Both the position numbers and the translations under genes were made by a program. DNA of 64,000 bases from Thraustochytrium sp. TN22 (lineage: Eukaryota; Sar; Bigyra; Thraustochytrida; Thraustochytriidae). The stretch spans positions 23,292 to 87,291 of the forward strand of contig JABLUY010000166.1 of the NCBI GenBank assembly GCA_013306675.1, written 5' to 3'. The notes beneath the pieces are model-generated. The model had not been told where the DNA came from, made no database searches, and saw only the letters and a list, made by a program, of their open reading frames with translations. This document shows positions 16,769 to 34,210 of the stretch, piece after piece. Each line of letters begins with the position of its first letter. Within the stretch, counting starts at the first letter, position 1.

Positions 16769-17232
16769 TTACAGATCTGGTGGCCGCTCCTCCTCGGCGG
16801 AGGTCGCGGCGGTGCTCGTGGCGGGCGAGGGCGCGTCCGCGACCTTGGCCCTATTCTTCATGTTGCGCAGCTTGTGCTTGACGGCCGTCGCCCGCTTGCG
16901 GAACTTGGAGTCGCGCGCGGCCTGATCCGCGTCGCTGCTCTCCTCGCGGCGGCGGTCCTCCTCGAGGCGCTCCAGCTCCCGCTGCGCCTTGGCGGCGAGC
17001 CACTGCTGCAGCTTCTTGTGCTTGGCGAGTTCTTTCTGCTTCTCGCGGAGGCTCGCCGACAGCGCCGAGCTTGCTGGGTCTGCCGGATTGCTTGTCTCGC
17101 GCTCCGCTTGCTGCTGATTCTTGTGTACTTGCGGCTGCTGCGGCTGCTCCACGCGGTTGCCAACGCCGCGCACGCGATACGAAGCCGGGAGCGCGGCACT
17201 TGGGACCGGGGCACGCGGCGAGAGCCCACTAC

Positions 17233-17268
<36 letters not shown>

Positions 17269-18883
17269 TGCTGCCACCTACATGACGCCTGAACTCGGCC
17301 TGGAACTCCTCCTCCTCCACCTCAAACGCGAAAAACTTGTCCGCGCAAGACTTGAGCGCCGAAACGGTGCCGCGCAACCTGCGGTTCTCCGCCCGCAGGC
17401 TGGCTGCGTCCGCGTCCGCCTCTGCCTTGGCGGCCGCCACGGCCGCCTGCAGCTTCGGAGGTGTTACGCCCGCGTCCTGCGCCTCGCGCAGCTTTTGGTT
17501 GTCGCGCTCCAGCCTCGCGATGCGCTCGCGCGCGTCAAAGAGGTCCTTGGCTGCCGCAAAGGCCGCTGTGCTGTTGTTTGGTGGCGCTCCAGGTGCGCCG
17601 TCTTCGAGCGCGAGCAGCGGCTGCGCACCAGCAACAGGTTGCTCAGGCTGGTGATGCGCCCCCGCTGGCACGAGCGCCAGCGCATTGCCCGCAGCATAGG
17701 TAATCCCGTGTGCGTCGAGCAGCCCCCGCAGGCTGGTGATCTCTGCCTCGAGGCGGAGCACGAGGTCCAGCGAAACCTCGCGCGTCTCCACCACGCGCGC
17801 GTGCTGCATGACGCGCTTAGCGCGGTCCGCAAACTTGAGCGTGGAGATGGACTCCTCCACAAAGTCAGCGCTCGGCGAGAGCGTGGCGATGACGCACGTG
17901 CGCGAGTTGCCCCCCAGGGCATCCTGCAGAATGCGCGTAAGTTTCGAGTCGCGGAATGGCACGTGCGTGGCCTGCGGGTCCGTGAGCGCTGCGATGCACC
18001 GCCCCAGCGTGTGCAGGCTCGTGTTGATGTTGGTCAGCTCCGAGACGTGGCCCTTGTCGAGCTGCTCCAGCGTACCCCATTTCTCGGAGCCGGCCAGGTC
18101 CACCAGGTTCAGCTTGGCACGCACCACGCGCCCGCTGCGCTGCTTGCGCCGCTCCACGCACATCTGGAAGATCGAGTGACTACGGCTGCTCACGTCGTTC
18201 ATCTGCGTCTGCCTGCACGCGCGCTGCTCGTCGCCCTGCTCCAGCAGCGCCATGCATTCGTGAACGGACGTTACCGCGTACTCGCTCAAGCCCACCACGT
18301 AGATCTCCTTCGTCTCCGCGTTCTCGTGCACTTGCAGCGGCCGCTCGCGCTGCGGATCTCGCAGGAGGTCAAACGGCTGGTCGTTGTAGATCTGCATGAA
18401 GCTGCAGTAGACTGACACCTGCTCGTCCTCCCCGTCCGCGTCCTCGTCCTCCGCGCGCGCGGACCGCCGCTGCTCCACGATGCTCAGCACCTCGCGCACC
18501 GCGCGTGGGATCACGCCCGTACTCTCCGAGAGCGCCTCGGCGCCGTAGATTGACAGGTCGTCCTCCGGCCCGAACATCGTATATGACTTGCCTGACCCGG
18601 TCTGCCCGTATGCAAAAATGGTGCAGTTGAGGCCATCCAGCACCGACCCTGCCGCGAAGCGCACCTGCTCGTACACCTCGTGCTGGCTGCTGCTGCCATC
18701 GAAGACATGGTCGAAGCGCGCGCGCACGTCGTGCAGGTCTGTCTTGATGAGCACCTGGTTCTCGCTCGCCTCCGCCACCATGTCTGCGCCTGCCTCGCGC
18801 CCCAGCGGCGGCCGGATCCGGATGAGCACCTTGATACGCTCGCGGCATGCTTTCGCGCGTGCGTCCGCCATCGCCTCCGCCAT
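16769..18883 (-). CDS. Kinesin-like motor protein, N-terminal motor
   Basis: 704 aa from the ATG at 18883. The motor domain occupies about residues 15-365: P-loop GQTGSGKS at 93-100, switch I NDVSSRSHS around 229-237, switch II VDLAGSE at 261-267, and the microtubule-binding region ending in STLKFADRAKRV. These are the full set of ATPase residues, so it should be an active microtubule motor. A neck/coiled-coil region follows (about 366-520), then a Gly run (about 540-552) and a basic, Gln/Lys-rich coiled tail (TAVKHKLRNMKNRAKV). The N-terminal motor implies plus-end movement by family analogy. Subfamily is uncertain. An upstream in-frame start at 18997 would add 38 residues outside the conserved region. 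Confidence 0.92.
17232..17268 (-). repeat. CCG/GGC run encoding polyglycine in the kinesin
   Basis: About 12 consecutive Gly codons (GGC on the minus strand) in the linker before the basic tail of the kinesin. Confidence 0.85.
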
Positions 18884-19925
18884 CGCGCCCGCCGGCCGAG
18901 GCCCGGCCTCAAGCCTGCCGCGCGCAGAAGCGGGCTCGAGTTGCCGCTTCGAGTAGCTCCACGCTCCGAGTTGTGCTTGACTTTGAGCGCGTGTCACGCT
19001 TCGGGTGGCGCGGCCGCGCCGGAGAACCCAACGGCTACTCTCATTTTCACAACGTCAGCCAGCGCCGTGATGGTAGTTAGCGCGCCTGGGACTCGCTCGA
19101 CGCTTGACCGGAGTGGATGAGCACAAAGAGTGCAAGGATAAAAAAGCTGAATGAAAGCAGTGACGGGCCAGAACAATAGAAGCCTGCTTTGGCATGGGCG
19201 AATCCCAATTTGCGGAACGGTGCGGGCTCGTGCATCGCCACCGGCTTGCACTGCCTGTGATGTGATTTCCATATCTGCTCATTCGTTTCGTACGGCGCAA
19301 TTGGAGCACCCGCTGCGCAGTATGCCCAACGCTCATCTGGTGGTCTTCATCAGCATCGAGTCTCAGGCTCGCATGCCGGCTTTTCGCAACATCTTCATGC
19401 GATGCAATACGATGTGTCATTCTTGCACCGCAGCAGATTGCTCCCTGCAGCCCTTCCCACATCGCGCCACATGATCGGCGCTCGGCCCAGGTTGGTCGTA
19501 CCCGTAGGCTTAATGTTTTGACGAACGGACTGTCCTTGGCAAGCGGCGGTCTTTCGTCCCAGCGCGTACCCCGATCCCCAAACTGGCTGTGATGGCGCTG
19601 CCTCAACGTGAAAGTCAAGGCCGCGCGCTCGCTGGTCTGGATTCTGCTTCAACAAGGTGTAGCGTTCAAACTTCCTGGCTCACCGCCCCCGGCTTGTTAC
19701 GTGACGAGCTGCCTCGCTCTGCGTTGATTTGCGAACAAATGTGCGGCTTTCTCAACTCGTGCACGACATCGCCGATGGCACGACGCGACACGAGGCACGA
19801 GAGCGAGTGATCATGATCATGATCATCCACCATTCGTACGTCAAGGTCCGGCTCGGTCTCGACGGCAGTCTCGATTTGGTCGGCGGACGGGGGCGCGGAC
19901 GCGGACGAGGGCGGGCGCAGGAACG
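18884..19925. other. Intergenic region, no supported gene
   Basis: About 1 kb between the divergent kinesin and phosphorylase/deaminase genes. It is less GC-biased than the coding regions; short frames on both strands show no domains. A TGATCATGATCATGATCAT palindromic stretch lies at about 19808-19827. Confidence 0.6.
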
Positions 19926-22172
19926 ATGTCGGGCGGCAGCGAGGTCGTAGTGCTTGGCGTGATCGGCGGGTCCGGCCTGCTCAAGAGCGACATCTTCTCG
20001 CGCGACGTGCGCGAGGAGGTGGTGTCCACGGCGTTTGGCGAGGTGAAGTTGGCGCGCAAGGAGCTGAGCCCGCAGCTGCACATGGTGTTTGCGCAGCGCC
20101 ACGCGAGCGACCCCGAGGTGGCGTACAGCCCGCCGCACCTGGTGAACTACCGCGCGGTGCTGGCGGCGCTCAAGGAGACGGCGCACGCCGTGGTGGCCAT
20201 CTGCTCGGTGGGCTCGCTGCGGCCCAACGTGCAGCCCGGCACGCTGGTTGTTCCTGACGACTTCTTTTGCCCGTGGCGGCTCATGACGTCCTTCGACGAC
20301 GCGCGCGGGCACTGCATCCCGGGTTTCAACGAGGCGCTGCGGCAGGAGATTCTCGCCGCGCTCACGCAGGACGGCGCGCCGGAGCACCGGATGCTGGACG
20401 GCGGCGTGTACGTAAACAGCCTGGGCCCGCGCTTCGAGACCAAGGCGGAGATCAAGTGGATGAGTCAATGCGGCGATCTCATCGGCATGACGCTGGCCAA
20501 CGAGGCTGGCCTGGCCATGGAGCTCGGCTTGCCGCTGGCCAGCCTGTGCATGATCGACAACATGGCCAACGGGCTTGGCCCGCGGCTCTCGCTGGAGGCC
20601 TTTCACGAGCTGCAGCGCCAGAATCAGGCGCACGTGGAGCAGGCCGTGCACCTCATCCTGAGTCACTTCGAGGGCAACCCGGACGTGCTGCGGCGCATCG
20701 CTGGCGGCGAGGGTGATGGCGCTGCCAAGGGCGAGGCCAAGGGCGAGGATGGCGTCAAGAACGGGGCTTCGGAGGCCCAGGCCGAGGCGGATGAGGTCAT
20801 CCACGCCATGAGCGTCGTGACCGTGGACGCGGAGAACCGCGTGCTGCCGGGCCACGCCGTGGCGCTGCGCGACGGCCGCATCGTGGACATTTTGCCGTCC
20901 GAGGAGGCGGACGCCAAGTACGGCGCGGTGTCCAGCAAGGCCACCAAGATCGTGCGGCGCCCCGAGTGCGTTCTCATGCCGGGCCTCATCAACGCGCACA
21001 CGCACTCGCCCATGAACCTGCTCAAGGGCTTCAGCGACGATCTGCCGCTCTCCACGTGGCTGCAGGAGAAGATCTGGCCCGTCGAGGTGCGTTGCGTGTG
21101 CGGCAACTTCTCGCGCGAGGGCTCGCGCCTGGCCATCGCCGAGATGCTGCGCGGCGGCACCACCTGCTTCTCCGACATGTACTTCTTCCCGGAGTCCACG
21201 GCCGAGGCCGTCGAGGAGACCGGCATTCGCGCCTGCATTGGCTGCATCATCATCGAATTCCCGTCCAACTATGCCGGCGGCGCCGACGACTACTTGGCCA
21301 AGGGCCGCAAGATGCTCGCCGACTTTGCCGGTCGCACCGACCGCCTCACCTTTAGCGTCGCGCCGCACAGCGTCTATGCGGTCTCCGAGGAGCACATTCT
21401 CGAGGCCCGCAAGCTGGCGCGTGACAACAAGATTCCCTTCCACATCCACCTCTGCGAGACCACGGGCGAGGTCGAGGACTCGGAGCGCGGTGACCGGACT
21501 TCACAGTTCTGTCACCAGACCGACAAGAAGGTGCGCCCGCTGCGCAACCTCTTTGACATTGGCGTCGTCGACGACCGCTTTGTTGCCGCGCACATGGTGC
21601 ACCTCACCGACGATGAGATCGCCGAGTATGCCAAGTGCGGCGCGCACGTCGTGCACTGCCCCACGTCCAACCTCAAGCTCGCCAGCGGCTTTTGCCCCGT
21701 GCAGAAGCTCCTCGACGCCGGTGTCAACGTCGCGCTCGGTACCGACGGCGCCTCCTCCAACAACTCGCTCGACATGTTCCAGGAGATGAAGCTCGCCGCC
21801 ATCCTCGCCAAGGGCGTCGCCAAGGAGCCCTGCGCCGTGCCCGCGCCGCAGGCGCTGCGCATGGCCACCATCAACGGCGCCAAGGCGCTCGGCATCGACG
21901 ACAAGGTCGGCTCCATCGAGGTCGGCAAGCAAGCTGATCTCGTCCTCATCAACTTCGCGGAGGTGTCCTGCCTCCCCGCCTTTGACGTAGTCAGCCACCT
22001 CGTCTACTCTTGCAGCCGCCATCAGGTCTGCGACGTCTACGTTGCTGGCAAGTGCCTCGTTCGCGACCACGAGCTCCTCTCCATCGACGCCGCCCAGCTG
22101 CGCGCCGATGCCGAGAAGTGGCACGAGAAGGTTCTTGAGACCGACGCCAGCCACGATGGCAGCTACAAGTGA
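19926..22172 (+). CDS. Fused methylthioinosine (MTAP-type) phosphorylase / MTA-SAH deaminase
   Basis: 748 aa. Residues 1-255 are a purine nucleoside phosphorylase of the MTAP type: phosphate-site GVIGGSGL near 11-18, LGPRFETKAE, and a purine-site segment CMIDNMANG. The position equal to human MTAP Asp220 is Asn212, as in 6-oxopurine PNPs. After a charged linker (about 256-290), residues 290-748 match bacterial MtaD-type deaminases: NAHTHSPMNLL (metal ligands His358, His360), HIHLCET, AAHMVHL and GTDGASSNNSLDM (Asp607). MtaD deaminates methylthioadenosine, S-adenosylhomocysteine and related nucleosides. The deaminase would make methylthioinosine, which the other half would split to hypoxanthine and methylthioribose-1-phosphate. 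Catalytic residues look intact in both halves. The one-reading-frame fusion is seen directly; the order of reactions is inferred. Confidence 0.93.
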   Translation: MSGGSEVVVLGVIGGSGLLKSDIFSRDVREEVVSTAFGEVKLARKELSPQLHMVFAQRHASDPEVAYSPPHLVNYRAVLAALKETAHAVVAICSVGSLRPNVQPGTLVVPDDFFCPWRLMTSFDDARGHCIPGFNEALRQEILAALTQDGAPEHRMLDGGVYVNSLGPRFETKAEIKWMSQCGDLIGMTLANEAGLAMELGLPLASLCMIDNMANGLGPRLSLEAFHELQRQNQAHVEQAVHLILSHFEGNPDVLRRIAGGEGDGAAKGEAKGEDGVKNGASEAQAEADEVIHAMSVVTVDAENRVLPGHAVALRDGRIVDILPSEEADAKYGAVSSKATKIVRRPECVLMPGLINAHTHSPMNLLKGFSDDLPLSTWLQEKIWPVEVRCVCGNFSREGSRLAIAEMLRGGTTCFSDMYFFPESTAEAVEETGIRACIGCIIIEFPSNYAGGADDYLAKGRKMLADFAGRTDRLTFSVAPHSVYAVSEEHILEARKLARDNKIPFHIHLCETTGEVEDSERGDRTSQFCHQTDKKVRPLRNLFDIGVVDDRFVAAHMVHLTDDEIAEYAKCGAHVVHCPTSNLKLASGFCPVQKLLDAGVNVALGTDGASSNNSLDMFQEMKLAAILAKGVAKEPCAVPAPQALRMATINGAKALGIDDKVGSIEVGKQADLVLINFAEVSCLPAFDVVSHLVYSCSRHQVCDVYVAGKCLVRDHELLSIDAAQLRADAEKWHEKVLETDASHDGSYK

Positions 22173-22793
22173 GTCAGTCGGCGTGAGTCCGAGCCAGCCC
22201 TTTTTTTGCATTTGCGCTTCTGAGCTCCTGTGCTGCGTCGGCGTGGGTCCGAGCCAGTCTTCCTGCGTCGTCGAGCTGCACCGGTGTGAGTCCAAGCCAG
22301 GTTCCCGGGGGGGGGGGGCATTTCAGAGCGTTCTTGAGCTGCCGCGGCGTGAGCAGTCTGTCTTTGCGTTCTCTTCGAGCTCCTATTCTAAGTTACGTCG
22401 GCGTAGCTCCGGACCAATCTTTCGCGTGTTTCGCGCGCCTCTCGGCTGCCCCAGCAAGCACACCAATCTTGTCTTGTCCACAACAAGGGTGGGTGGTACC
22501 TGGGCACCCGGGTGCAAGCGCTGCGTAGACAACATCAATAGACGCACGCCAGTGGCGATGTATTTCTTGCCCTGCGACCCCTGGCGATCATCATTCGTCT
22601 CACGTGCCAGCCGGGACACTTGCTGACGGTCGCGCGTCGAACGAAGGTGGCCTTGTCGTCGCAGACCTCCAATCTGCACGAGCTGCACGAATCGACTTTG
22701 TCGCGGGTCGGGACGCTGGCCCGCGCCGGGCGGCGGGGCGCGAGGCGCGCGCGTGCGCCCCTGCGTCCTCGACGCGAGCTGGCCAGGCCAGCT
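22173..22793. other. Intergenic region with degenerate minisatellite
   Basis: 621 bases between the fusion gene and USB1. The first half is a decayed repeat; the second half is ordinary GC-rich leader. The USB1 frame is open back to 22620 but without supporting homology. Confidence 0.6.
22179..22400 (+). repeat. Degenerate minisatellite, unit about 40-60 bases
   Basis: The core CGGCGTGAGTCCGAGCCAG (22179-22197) recurs with changes at 22239-22257 and 22281-22300, and weakly near 22343 and 22397. Flanks such as GAGCTCCTGT/GAGCTCCTAT also recur. It begins right after the stop codon of the fusion gene. Confidence 0.7.
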
Positions 22794-23555
22794 ATGAAGC
22801 GACCGCAGGCGGAAGGTGTCGAGCCGGGGCATGAGCTGGAGCAGGGCAACGAGCGCCAGCGCCGACGCCGACGCAGCGAAAGCCAGGGCGAAGGCGTGGG
22901 CGGGCTGGACGCCGGCAGCTCGAAGGCCGAAGGGGCTGCAGCCGAAGTGAGCCTGCAAGCTGCGCGCGGCGAGCGACTCTTTCCACACGTGGACGGTCAA
23001 TGGGCCACCTCTGTTGCACTGCCCGTGCAGGTGCCAGAGAGCGCAGTCGAGGACGCCGTCGACTTTCTCGAGGACGCGCGACCGGAGGCTGAGGTTGCTG
23101 CAATACTTCAGCCGCATGTGAGCCTGTCGCGAACCTTCCCGCTGCGCGAGCACCAGATCGAGCCCTTTGTCGCCGCCGTGCGCGCTGCTGTCGCACCCTT
23201 CGCCGCCTTCACGGCCAGCGCACGCAGATTACGTCTCTTCGCGAGCGAAAACCTCACGCGCGTTTTCGCCGTCCTGCTCACGGACCGCGGCTCGGATCGT
23301 GTGCTGGCGCTCATCAAGGCCATGGACGCGGTCGCCGCGGCCTTTCAGGCTCCTGCGTACTACGAGGACCCGGTGCCCCACGTCTCGCTAGCATCTGCAG
23401 CACAGGACGTCTCTGCTGCGCTTGCTGACGAGGGACTTTTGGCCGGTCCGCCGGCCTCAATCTCCATGTATGAGGTCGTGGTGACGTGTGGCGACCGACG
23501 CTTCGTTCTTCCACTCGCAACAAAAGGCAGCAGTGGGAGCACACCTCACGTGTAG
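22794..23555 (+). CDS. USB1: U6 snRNA phosphodiesterase USB1 (2H family)
   Basis: 253 aa from the ATG at 22794. USB1/Mpn1 is a nuclear 3'-exonuclease that trims the oligo-U tail of U6 snRNA and leaves a protective cyclic phosphate. Both HxS catalytic motifs of the 2H phosphoesterase fold are present: HVS at 108-110, within QPHVSLSRTFPLREHQIEPF, and HVS at 196-198, within YYEDPVPHVSLA. FPHVDGQWATSVALPV also matches the family. Residues 1-60 are a disordered Gln/Glu/Arg-rich tail with a basic cluster (RQRRRRRSES), a possible nuclear signal. An open extension back to 22620 looks non-coding. Presence of USB1 fits a spliceosome-bearing genome. Confidence 0.92.
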   Translation: MKRPQAEGVEPGHELEQGNERQRRRRRSESQGEGVGGLDAGSSKAEGAAAEVSLQAARGERLFPHVDGQWATSVALPVQVPESAVEDAVDFLEDARPEAEVAAILQPHVSLSRTFPLREHQIEPFVAAVRAAVAPFAAFTASARRLRLFASENLTRVFAVLLTDRGSDRVLALIKAMDAVAAAFQAPAYYEDPVPHVSLASAAQDVSAALADEGLLAGPPASISMYEVVVTCGDRRFVLPLATKGSSGSTPHV

Positions 23556-28861: not shown

Positions 28862-29937
28862 ATGGAGCCCCCGGCCGCGGGCGCGCGGTCGCCGGCGGCG
28901 GCGGCGGCGGCGCGGTCGCCCGCGTGGTCGCGGCGCGAGGGCACGGGCCGCGCGCGGTTCGCCTTCGAGGCGCGCGGCAAGCACCAGCTGTCGCTGGCGG
29001 CCGGCGACCTGGTGCACGTGCAGGGCTTCTCCAGCGGCTGGTTCAAGGGCGTGCAGGCGCGCACGGGCAAGCGCGGCATCTTCCCCGCCGCCTACGTGGA
29101 CCTGCTCGAGGCCGGGGACGCGGGCGGCGCCGAGGATGCGCGGCGCCAGGGAGGCGCCGGCGCCCTGGACGCGGAGGCCCTGCTCGCCGAGGTCGATGAG
29201 GTGCTGGGCGCGTGGCAGGCCGTGCTGGACCGCCAGGCCGCCACGCACGAGGTAGGCGACCTGCAGGCGCGCCTCGCGCTGCTCTCGGACTGGCGCCGCG
29301 CGCTCTGGGGCCAGCCCACGCCGCCACCCGAGCCGGAGGCGGCGCGCCTGCGCGGGGGCATCCTCAAGCTGCTCGAGCTGGACGTCCACAGCGAGGCGGG
29401 CGGCATGCTCACGCCGCGCAACGGCGCTGGTCGCCCTGTCTCGAGCGCGGACGCTTCGCTGGCCGAAATGGTCGCACGTCATGAGCGCTTGCAAGCCGAC
29501 CTTGAGACCGGCCTGCAGCGCGCCGACACGTTGTGGGCGCGCATAGGCTCCTGGCCCGTTCAAGGCGACAGCACCGAGGCTTGCGTTGCGCTCTCCGTGC
29601 GTGTAGCGCGCGCCGACCTGCGCTGCAGCGACCCGCTCTGGCTCTGCTTCGCACTTTACGATGCGCGCGCGCAGGTGCAACTCTCCGAGGACGCGATCAT
29701 TCGCGTGGACGGAAGCGCGGCAAGCAACGCAAGCGAGTTGGGCGCCGACGCGTCCTCTGCGCGCTTTGCTTGCGTCCCACGACACCTTGTGGACGAGCGA
29801 CTAGCGCTTGTCTGCAAGATCGTGCGCGAGGGCCCGCTACTGCCGCAGCCGGGCCAAGAGGTCTCCTCCGAGCCACGTGACGACACCTTTCGGCGGCCCT
29901 TTGGCATGGCTGTTTGGTTCTTGGCCGACGCTCTTGC

Positions 29938-29995
<58 letters not shown>

Positions 29996-32900
29996 CTTCC
30001 AGACAGCAAGGACAATGGCTGTCCAGCGGCCAGCCTCTGGCTTGCGCAGGGTCGCGAGGACCACCTCGAAGCGCGTCTGCGCGCCGAGCTCATGCAAGGG
30101 TTCACCAGGAGCATGGTCCGCTCGCCATCGGCGCAGAGCACGCCGCAGGCGCTGGCAAGGCGCGAGCGCCTCGCCATCTGCCTTGAAGCGCACGAGCCCG
30201 AGCTTCAAAACGACTGCACCGGGGCGGTGCTCCTCAACCCGGACGCTTGCCCCTCGGCGCGCGCGCCCGCATTCGAAGCACGGCGCGAGGTCTACCTTCG
30301 CCTCAGGCACGGCAACTTCCAGCAGGACCAGAAGAGGTCGGCGCGCAACGTCCAAATCCGCGTGCACCTTGTCGATGGCGCCGGTAAGCTCTTGGCAGGC
30401 GCGGTGGGCCGCGACCGGGCTGACCTCGGCGACACCTACCGGTCGACCGTGTACTATCATGACAATCAACCAAGCGTCGAGGAGCAACTCATCCTCAGGC
30501 CTCCTCAGGGCGCGAGACCAGGGGATGGTCTGCACGTGCTCTTCGTGTTTCTGCACGCGTCCTCCACAGTGCGCAAGTCGCGGGCCTTTTCATTTTCATT
30601 TTTGCCGCTCTTCACCAAGGCTGGCGCCCTGCGGGCCGATGGCGACTACACGCTCAAATGCTATACGCCTTTATCCGGCATGGGCCCGGTGGAGACCGAG
30701 GTGGCGGGCAACGCCAAGTACCTGGTGGCGGACCCAGTGCTCCCCAAGGGAGGCGTGGCCATGGCGGAGCCCAACTTGCGGCCCAAGGAGACCCTTTCAA
30801 TCCGTCTGTACGCGAGCTCCACGCTGCTGTCGCAGGACGCTCGCCTGGCGACTCTCTTCTCGCTCGTGCGCGAAGGCGCCCCGGGTTCGCGGGAGGACCT
30901 CGGCTCGCTCTTCCGCCTGGTGGCCACGCAGGTGGACATCCACACGCAGCTACGGCATTTGTGGCCGCTCCTCGACTGCGTCTTCATCGCGATGGATACT
31001 GTCGAGGACGACCTCATCGTGCAGGCCGCCTTCTCCATGCTCGTCGCGCTTCTCGACCAGGCCTCCATCACTGTGGACCGGGAGCTCTTGCAGAAGCGTC
31101 TCGACACCTACGTGGGCGACCATTTGCACGAGCAGGCCTTCGCGTCCCGCGCCTACGTGGCGCTCCTCGGCAACCTGCGCCTCTGGCTCGAGGCGCTCCC
31201 ACCCGCTGCCTCTGAGGAGCCGAACGAACGCGGGAACGGCGGTGGCGCCGTCCTGCGGACGCTGGGTCATTTGTGCCAGCTCCTCTTCGCGTCGCGAAGA
31301 TGCGCGGCGGCCGATGCCATGGGACGCAACATCGGCTGGGACGGCAGCAGCGCCGGCCTGGCGAACTTCGAGCAGCACGTACTTGAGCTCTTCTATCTGG
31401 TGGACGCGGTGGCGGCCTCCGAGTCCTCGGGCGTGGCGCAGGAGCTCCGACGCGATGCTTTGGCTGGCATGGCGCAGGTCCTGAACTTTGCGCTCGTGGA
31501 CAGCGGCCTCGAGGAGGCGACCGTGGCAGAGATTGCGCGCGGGTTTCTGGATTCGCTGCACCACGTGCCCTCGGGCGTCAAGCTGGACGCCCTCGACGTG
31601 CTTGGGAGCCTGTGCGAATCGCGCTTGCTGACATGGTGGGAGGTGCGCAGCCGCGTCACGCCCTCGCTCGTGCGCGCGCTGCAGGCGCACCTTCGCGGCA
31701 GCCTCGAAGAGCAGGAGCGCTGTGCGAAGTGCGTGGCGGCCTTCTTTGCGATTGTGCCGCGGCAAGACCCGGTGCTGACCGTGACGCAGCGGCGCGAGGA
31801 CATCTGGAATGCCTCCTTTCTGCTGCCCGACCTCTTTGGCGCCGCCCGAGCTTTCGTAGCGATTCGCCACGAGGCGCCGCCGCCGCCGTCGCGCGTGGAG
31901 GCGGCCGCCCAAGCGCGCAGGGCGCGTCCCAGCTTCATGCTCGACCACCTCCCGGAAGACGTGCGGCGGACGGTGGTGCGCCTGTTGACGTGCGCCTTTT
32001 CGATCATTCTGGACCTGGACGCGCAGCAGCTGCGCTACTTTATGACGGCGGCCTTTTCTCCAGACGATGACCCGGACAAGGCGGCAACGGCAAGTGGCGG
32101 TCCAGGCGGTCCAGGCGCCGCGGATGACTTCGTGCGTGCGGCCCTGGTGTGCTGCAACGCTGCGCTGCGGCGCGCCGACCACGTCTACCTGGACTTGTAC
32201 CCGGATGCTTGGTTTGCGGCGCAGGCAGCCGCGATCGTTGCCATGCTGCGCCTGCTGGAGTGGTTCGCACAGCGCCTGTCCGCGTACTGCAGGGACGGCG
32301 CGGCGCGCGCCGACCTGCAGCGCGGAGACAACAGCGTTTGGCTCCTCTTTATGCGTGCCGGTCTCGCACTCGCTGGCAACCCAGTCCTGGGCGGTGGCGT
32401 GAGTTTGCAGGACGCGGGCCGGCGCCGCGCGCGGGAGCGTGAGCGCCTCCACGAAGGGCCATCGCGGCTCGCGCGCGTCCTTCGCAGCGTGTGGGACGGC
32501 GCCCTGGCTAGCCAGCGCCGCGTCCTCGCGCCGCTCCTGACGGTCGACGTCCTCGACCTCTGCACTGGAACGGACTCGGACGATCTACTTGCGCTGGCAC
32601 GGAAGATGTACCTGGACATGCTTGTGGCCGAGCTCCGGCCTGACGCCAGCACGAATGCCGGCAGCTCAAGCCGCGCCGTGGAGCTCGCCACGGCCTCCTT
32701 TGTGAACTTCGTCTCTCGCGCGCCCTCGTCAGGGCCGGCGCAACGCGCCGTGGAGCTCTTCGAGGTCTCGCTCTTGGAGAGCGCCAGCCTCGAAGTGCAG
32801 CAGAACAATGCGGTGGCGGGCTTCGTGCAGGACATGGCACACTTTTGCCGTCTGCTCCAGGAGCTGGATTCGCTGCCGCGAACGGCAGAGCGCGAGCACG

Positions 32901-34210
32901 AACGCGTCGACGCGCAGGTTGAGCTGCTCAACTATCTGCGCCGCCAGGGCCGCGACGAGAGCTTTTTGAGCCGTCTCGACGAGCTGGTGGGCCTGCACGA
33001 GGAGCGCGGAAACTTTGCGGAGGCCGTCAACGCGCGGCTACTGCAGCTGCCCCTGACGGGGGACCGTGAGCGCGTGCTGTGGGAGGTCGTCGAGGCTTGC
33101 ACGCGCGGCGCGCTTTGGGACCGCGCCGTCACCGTGCTGGACGAGCTTCGTGACATCTTTGAGCGTGACTTCAAGCTGCACCGCGTCCCCGAGGTGCTTC
33201 GCCGACAGGCGGACTTTGTCGAATGCCTCGTGCGTGACCAGCAGCAGCGCGTCTACCCGCACTACTACCGCGTGTCCTTTAAGGCGCCGGGCGCGCTCCC
33301 CGAGCACGACGTTGCGGTATGGAACCGCGTCTTCGTGTACAAGGCCGGACCTATGGAGGGTCTCGTAGACTTTTCCGCGAGCCTTGGCGCCGCCTTTCCC
33401 GGCATTCGTGTTCTGCAGCCCGCCCAGGCTCATGCCGCCGACGCGGCTGCCGCTGGGCCTTGGATTGAGGTGCAGACTGTCAAGCCGGTCTCCTGGTTTG
33501 AGGATGCCCTGCTCGCGGAGCGGAAAGCAGGCGATGGCGCACGAGATATGCACGCGTGGAGGTTGAGCGTGGCGAGCGCGGAGCACGCCGCTAGGGAGCT
33601 GATGCCGCCGGCGCGAGCGCTCAAGGACAAGGCGCACGCGGCGGTCGCCCGCGTGGCGAGCCTGACGTCCTTTCGCAAGCGCACCGCCAAGAGCGGCAAC
33701 GACTTCCTCGACACCTGGGCCCGCGTGCGCGTCACGCTTCTCGAGCCGCCCGGGTTTCCGTGCCTCTCGCGCAGGCTGCCGGCCGCCGGCGAGCTCGAGC
33801 TCGAGGTGGATCCGCTGCGCATCGCCATCCAAGCCATTCAGGACAAGAACTGCGAGCTCGCCGAGCAGTCCGCCGATCATGCGCGCCGTACCGCGCGCGA
33901 CGCGCCGCAGTCCTTTACCATGCTCCTGAGCGGCGTCATTGACGCGGCTGTCAGCGGCGGTGTCGCTCGCAACTACGCCTCCTTCTTCGATGGCTCTTAC
34001 CGTCGCGACTACCCCGAAATTGTTGCGGCGTATCGTTCCGAGGACGTCGCCGAGCTCTGGGTGGCGCACCTGCGTGCCGCAGTGCGCACGCAGGTCGACC
34101 TTCTCGATGCCGCGCTGCGCGCCCACGGCGGCGTCTGCGCCGAGCCTGTGCTCCCGCTTCACGAGTACCTCGTCGACAAGATGGCGGACCTCAAGGCCGC
34201 GCTCCTCTGA
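28862..34210 (+). CDS. DOCK-family Rho-GTPase exchange factor (SH3-DHR1-DHR2)
   Basis: 1782 aa from the ATG at 28862, close to the usual 1800-1900 of DOCK-A/B proteins. DOCK proteins load GTP on Rac/Cdc42-type GTPases to drive actin remodelling and migration. Order: SH3 domain at about 30-82 (ARFAFEARGKHQLSLAAGD, then GIFPAAYVDLLE); helical region with an 18-Gln run (360-377); DHR-1/C2 lipid-binding domain at about 475-615 (REVYLRLRHGNFQ, then ADLGDTYRSTVYYHDN); armadillo-like helical middle; and DHR-2 catalytic domain at about 1380-1782 (YYRVSFKAPGALPEHDVAV, VYKAGPMEGLVDF). The N-terminal SH3 points to the DOCK180/CED-5 branch, which normally partners with ELMO. Whether it prefers Rac or Cdc42 cannot be told. 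Confidence 0.93.
29939..29992 (+). repeat. Pure CAG run (18 units) encoding polyglutamine in DOCK
   Basis: Eighteen uninterrupted CAG codons encode Gln360-377 between the SH3 domain and DHR-1. Lack of CAA interruptions makes it the most slippage-prone triplet run in the window. Confidence 0.9.

Follow-up and report, generated by a model that had tools for sequence, protein, structure and literature searches.

An open frame of Thraustochytrium sp. TN22, located in a 64,000-nucleotide stretch of contig JABLUY010000166.1 (hereafter, the window), runs from a phosphorylase-like part into a deaminase-like part. This raises the question of whether a eukaryote makes one polypeptide out of two purine enzymes and, if so, what that polypeptide does. 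Our analysis confirms that a single frame encodes one protein joining a phosphorylase and a deaminase. From its sequence, we infer two activities that would act jointly and in a set order: with a probability of roughly 0.8, the protein is a bifunctional, deaminase-first enzyme of 5'-methylthioadenosine (MTA) salvage that stands in for MTA phosphorylase (MTAP). The C-terminal amidohydrolase would remove the 6-amino group of MTA, giving 5'-methylthioinosine, and the N-terminal phosphorylase, with Glu171 and Asn212 at its base site, would convert methylthioinosine and phosphate to hypoxanthine and 5-methylthioribose-1-phosphate. MtnA of the same genome would take 5-methylthioribose-1-phosphate onward. 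The fusion would thereby replace MTAP, which was not found in the assembly.

Table 1. Features of the fusion gene, numbered from the first nucleotide of the window
Feature	Position	Strand	Description and basis
Whole fusion gene	19926..22172	+	748 aa, single open frame including stop codon
Phosphorylase half, residues 1-255	19926..20690	+	MTAP/MTIP family; Pfam PF01048, NCBIfam matches, trees
Glu171 codon, in GPRFET	20436..20438	+	Alignment of 110 rows; Ser or Ala in 7 MTAP-type rows
Asn212 codon, 6-oxopurine-type residue	20559..20561	+	Alignments; Asp in 7 MTAP-type rows
Linker, low-complexity, about residues 256-290	20691..20795	+	Codon score; model confidence <50 over residues 264-298
Deaminase half, residues 285-748, PRK09045-type amidohydrolase	20778..22169	+	NF006549, 4f0r, 4gbd, motif positions

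The frame is continuous over 748 codons, both enzyme families are matched and the linker scores as coding, which confirms the one-polypeptide fusion of the original prediction. At the base composition of the window (68% GC), a stop-free run of 748 codons from the given start is expected with a probability of about 1e-7. Pfam matched PF01048 at residues 69-242 (E 9e-25) and PF01979 at residues 349-709 (E 3e-76); together with PF07969, these were the only Pfam families in the protein. A codon table built without the fusion gene, from five others in the window, provided an independent coding score, which was 89.9 for the phosphorylase part, 16.0 for the linker and 199.4 for the deaminase part, and negative for the other five frames over the gene. 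One of the opposite frames, all of which score negative, is open for 565 codons (window positions 19752-21449, minus strand), as is expected where stops are rare. In the AlphaFold model, confidence was high over most of the phosphorylase half but poor from the linker into the early part of the deaminase half, probably an alignment effect, and the model is therefore given no weight on domain arrangement.

The surroundings of the gene are eukaryotic. Its upstream neighbour is a kinesin gene (16787-18784, minus strand) and its downstream neighbour a PF09749 gene (22620-23555, plus strand), with TIP49, NYD-SP28 sperm-tail, TAFII55 and DOCK genes nearby. Third-codon GC is 0.91-0.92 in the fusion gene, as against 0.85-0.96 in the neighbouring genes. 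Eukaryotic neighbours and matching third-codon GC rule out contamination as the source of the gene. The window also holds a 1758-codon open frame with SH3 and DOCK domains (28934-34207, plus strand).

At the base site, the phosphorylase half carries residues other than those of MTAP. Asn212 has its counterpart in an Asn of the P. aeruginosa structure 3ozb, whereas the archaeal MTAP 1v4n has Asp at this position. Of 110 aligned rows, 103 have Asn at position 212 and 7 have Asp; because most rows were fetched by likeness to the fusion protein, the sample is enriched in Asn rows. All 103 Asn rows carry Glu at position 171, where the seven Asp rows have Ser (six) or Ala (one), and none of the 110 rows shows a mixed pair. 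The Asp-type rows comprise 1v4n, four plasmid genes with an MTA phosphorylase annotation, one Halorussus gene annotated as MTAP family and one Thermofilum gene that groups with 1v4n; the Asn rows include the fusion phosphorylase and the canonical PNP of its own genome. The claim that Asn212 stands where MTAP has Asp is thus borne out: with Asn212 and Glu171, the phosphorylase half has the base-site pair of MTIP (methylthioinosine phosphorylase) and not the Asp at 212 with Ser or Ala at 171 of MTAP. We take Glu and Asn at these two positions to be the 6-oxopurine ligands of PNP; the available part of PMC5738077 yielded nothing on base-site residues. Position 223 is Leu in the fusion phosphorylase and His in the canonical PNP of the same genome, but is not a clean discriminator, as His occurs in 9 of the 103 Asn rows, this PNP included.

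Family models did not classify the phosphorylase half above threshold. It scored 128.7 bits with the MTIP model NF006599 (PRK09136), below the cut-off of 223, and about 150-154 bits with the MTAP model TIGR01694, below the cut-off of 274.85. Two members of its clade, L014 and L016, also fell below the NF006599 cut-off (152.5 and 128.5 bits), and ordinary MTIPs (L012 and L023) were above it, at 324 and 398 bits. We know of no assayed member of this clade. The phosphorylase half is predicted to act on methylthioinosine.

The original prediction had described the other half as a complete MtaD-type deaminase, and this description holds: the half passes NF006549, its nearest structures are 4f0r and 4gbd, and its motifs are intact. 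NF006549 (PRK09045; NCBI name TRZ/ATZ family hydrolase) gave 574.3 bits, above its cut-off of 540. PRK07228, named for 5'-deoxyadenosine, and PRK15493, named for MTA/SAH, gave 332 and 242 bits, each below its own cut-off. By sequence, the closest solved structure is 4f0r (418.9 bits), deposited as MTA/SAH deaminase. Foldseek placed 4f0s and 4f0r, both deposited under that name, at the top with 46% identity; it was uninformative on the phosphorylase half because its first 50 rows were all of amidohydrolase type. The P. aeruginosa structures 4gbd and 4dyk, titled adenosine deaminase, are 40-41% identical to the deaminase half, and 4gbd carries bound methylthio-coformycin. The motifs HxH at 358/360, H508 and E511, H556 and D607, presumably the metal and acid-base residues, are all present, and aligned 4f0r has the same HxH, HxxE, H and D motifs. 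The likely reaction of this half is deamination of MTA.

To place the fusion among the salvage genes of its genome, we searched the 37.9 Mb assembly, which may be incomplete, with intron-unaware methods. PF01048 matched three genes, namely the fusion gene, a canonical PNP above the PNP-model cut-off and a third gene above the cut-off for eukaryotic uridine phosphorylase. A separate MTAP gene, the presence of which the original prediction had left to be checked, was not found in this intron-unaware search of 37.9 Mb; TIGR01694 matched only the fusion gene and the PNP, neither over the cut-off, and no further gene of the assembly emerged as a candidate for MTAP or MTA nucleosidase. MtnA is present (412 bits, cut-off 271), as is a gene for SAH hydrolase. 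ARD (PF03079) was not found in the same intron-unaware search of the 37.9 Mb assembly. With MtnA present but ARD not found, the route onward to methionine after methylthioribulose-1-phosphate is uncertain. PF00156 had ten undifferentiated matches, and hence no single hypoxanthine salvage enzyme could be pinpointed. Besides the fusion gene, there were six unclassified amidohydrolase (PF01979) matches.

In prokaryotes, of which 606 genomes (G001-G606) were searched overall, the two functions occur as neighbouring genes. A phosphorylase gene followed by a deaminase gene (mtiP-mtaD), in the same order as in the fusion, was found in Methanomicrobiales, one Pseudomonadota order, some Deltaproteobacteria and other MAGs. 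A contig scan covered the best 80 of at least 587 relatives. A deaminase-like gene lay within the fetched stretch at 18 of 83 loci, and at ten of these 18 (L014, L015, L016, L018, L019, L020, L021, L029, L040 and L075) it directly followed the phosphorylase and was not of the distant L082 type. In a 398-genome sample of the phylum to which a Rhodocyclales MAG belongs, with scoring confined to the top two candidates of each genome and to the matches listed, the Pseudomonadota order just named stood out. This order, with 48 genomes, has the two genes side by side in 35, 32 kb apart in one and on different contigs in two; two genomes have the phosphorylase only, and eight gave weak matches or none. 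The phylum of the L015 genome (99 genomes) has at least ten adjacent pairs among the matches listed, with G583 a weak further case, and in 96 genomes from the phylum of the Verrucomicrobiota MAG G005 no adjacent pair appeared among the matches listed. These adjacent prokaryotic genes provide independent support for the two activities working together. In three genomes of the L015 phylum (L170, L171, L173), two deaminase copies adjoin.

We read 30 pairs at the DNA level, 20 from the 398-genome sample and the ten loci named above, all picked for adjacency. The phosphorylase frame ended in a stop in all 30, so that the genes are separate, and the deaminase start overlapped the phosphorylase stop in 16 of the 30 (12 of the 20 and 4 of the 10). 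Three apparent prokaryotic fusions, G003 (679 aa), G142 (667 aa) and G031 (738 aa), were ruled out by DNA showing separate frames with intervening stops. G583 (L174) was likewise rejected as a fusion: its match spans query residues 89-725 with a TAA inside, and identity over its phosphorylase-like part reaches only 25%. When the two halves were searched apart against plasmids (31 and 1351 records), no match covering both appeared among the 30 listed for each, nor among the ten listed of 15 phage records, all ten being deaminase only. A single-protein query of viral contigs, which reaches close relatives only, found no relative. The original prediction had called such a fusion unusual, and for the prokaryotic genomes sampled this stands, with 30 of 30 pairs separate; the scope of the statement is prokaryotes only. 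Among plasmid genes, an annotated methylthioinosine phosphorylase of a Polaromonas plasmid (L012:2830-4748) is followed about 660 bases downstream by a gene annotated as nucleoside deaminase, and an Azospirillum plasmid (L155:1-1410) carries an MTA phosphorylase gene divergent from, and adjoining, mtnA.

A phylogeny of each half, by which the original prediction proposed to judge their origin, placed the two halves with different kin. The careful phosphorylase tree used 71 of the 110 rows, after removal of six long ones and thinning. In it, the phosphorylase half and 32 other rows form a set (33 rows; support 100/99, the bootstrap not being fully settled) that leaves out PaMTIP and the Asp-type MTAPs. 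Within this set, the sister group of the half consists of the Pseudomonadota order's 20 rows (97/91). A quick tree of all 110 rows agreed, with a set of 34 rows at 99. Of the 32 other rows in the set, 28 adjoin a deaminase; for L022, L025, L030 and L035 (three Verrucomicrobiota), no adjacent deaminase was seen in the fetched stretches.

The careful deaminase tree used 62 of 69 rows, with L006, L082, L059, L101, L019, L042 and L029 dropped as long or partial. Here, the deaminase half clusters with unpaired Pseudomonadota deaminases; the set has 28 rows, counting the half, and support of 100/100. The 27 others have no phosphorylase-like match better than E 0.06 within about 1.5 kb on each side, and all ten of them that were scanned pass the NF006549 cut-off; the deaminases from the L014 and L016 operons fall below it. 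Holding the deaminase half together with 27 operon deaminases, a group chosen after the quick tree had been seen, cost 56.5 log-likelihood units and was rejected (AU p 0.012). Since the phosphorylase half sits in a paired-gene clade and the deaminase half with unpaired deaminases, the halves do not derive from one sampled operon lineage. The data do not support an origin of the fusion from a single operon transferred whole, the deaminase half being apart from the sampled operon deaminases. Apart from the halves themselves, the only eukaryotic rows were the PNP of the same genome in the 110-row phosphorylase tree and one of its own amidohydrolases in the quick deaminase tree. The end branches of the two halves are long (0.84 and 0.77), and the kinship of each half is accordingly given at the level of its group.

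These data also bear on other readings of the locus. Two genes may have been read as one frame where stops are rare, as in a GC-rich genome: at window composition, a 40-codon stretch stays stop-free by chance 43% of the time, which makes the open linker weak evidence for one gene, and the prokaryotic relatives are two genes. We nevertheless consider this highly improbable. Between residues 213 and 295 the frame lacks Met, and the 4f0r match begins at residue 285, which puts residue 295 already within the deaminase. A separate deaminase started from this frame would therefore be incomplete, missing its first residues, unless splicing supplied an upstream exon. In addition, the independent codon table gives the linker a coding score. 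It is also very unlikely, in our view, that MTA has remained the preferred substrate of the phosphorylase half, or that this half is a general PNP, with the deaminase serving a separate pool. Glu171 and Asn212 are found in none of the seven Asp-type MTAP rows, and the tree sets the phosphorylase half apart from these rows with strong support, even though the MTAP model scores slightly better than the MTIP model (150 vs 129 bits); a role as general PNP is further countered by the separate canonical PNP in the genome.

A third reading accepts the fusion as described but makes a different 5'-modified adenosine its main substrate, for example 5'-deoxyadenosine or S-adenosylhomocysteine (SAH), with MTA handled on the side. 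Consistent with this, PRK07228 and PRK15493 are among the deaminase matches, although both are below their cut-offs and the PRK09045 model scores far higher (574 bits). The M. jannaschii MtiP is reported, in the available part of PMC6302742, to act on six purine nucleosides, and the failure to find ARD would agree with a fate that does not lead to methionine. Yet the nearest structures were deposited under the name MTA deaminase or have an MTA-type inhibitor bound, the presence of SAH hydrolase means that SAH does not need the fusion route, and no other candidate for MTAP or MTA nucleosidase was found in the assembly. We regard this reading as unlikely and favor deaminase-first salvage of MTA.

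Beyond deaminase-first salvage itself, we tentatively propose a wider account, which we hold to be possible rather than probable: MTAP may have been given up and MTA salvage rebuilt in one chain out of two genes, both bacterial in type but distinct in lineage, methylthioinosine may be handed between the two sites, and curated models may be missing an operon-type MTIP subfamily.

MTAP, the usual enzyme of eukaryotes for this task, works in one step, releasing adenine. MTAP (TIGR01694) belongs to the same superfamily as the fusion phosphorylase and shares its expected sugar-phosphate product, but has Asp with Ser or Ala at the base site in place of Asn212 and Glu171. The prokaryotic mtiP-mtaD pairs have the same order of functions and, in most, a phosphorylase of the same clade; they differ from the fusion in being separate genes in the 30 read and in having deaminases of another clade. 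FAMIN/LACC1 is a laccase-like protein, and Pfam found no laccase-like domain in the fusion protein. According to the available part of PMC6978800, FAMIN/LACC1 combines adenosine deaminase, PNP and MTAP activities in one polypeptide; one-chain purine enzymes of such reach therefore exist, albeit by a different protein, which cleaves MTA directly with release of adenine and is not a fusion of these two families. The P. aeruginosa route employs an MTA deaminase and a methylthioinosine phosphorylase (Guan et al. 2011, 2012, as summarised in the available part of PMC6302742). This pair (4gbd, 3ozb) shares with the fusion the two families, the expected two-step chemistry and the base-site Asn, but consists of two separate proteins, and its phosphorylase lies in another clade. 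In Plasmodium, as described in the available part of PMC3885546, MTA is converted via methylthioinosine to hypoxanthine by adenosine deaminase and a hexameric PNP. This is the chemistry proposed for the fusion, but carried out by separate, other enzymes that are not relatives. Among the separate-enzyme precedents that the original prediction named, the apicomplexan case thus involves other enzymes with no kinship to the fusion. Tetrahymena MtnAK and MtnBD are methionine salvage fusions (PMC6302742, available part); they are protist fusions in the same pathway, but act at later steps and belong to other families.

Titles and abstract openings in the open-licence literature contained no report of a deaminase-phosphorylase fusion. 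The reading as a fused two-step MTA salvage enzyme is well supported; its architecture is new within the genomes and literature covered, the chemistry and the pathway being already known. If our reading is true, a eukaryote of flagellate type would follow a deaminase-first MTA route with dedicated enzymes, and the purine would leave as hypoxanthine, not adenine. MTAP is a much studied human enzyme, and an organism without it is for that reason informative. The adjacent prokaryotic genes and the eukaryotic fusion predict the same two-step reaction, and the fusion points to an operon-type MTIP subfamily that lies below the cut-offs of curated models.

The operon-type phosphorylase clade (L128-L147, L014-L021 without L017, and L040) is paired with deaminases in bacteria and methanogens. 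Its members that were scanned, L014 and L016, are below both the MTIP and the MTAP NCBIfam cut-offs.
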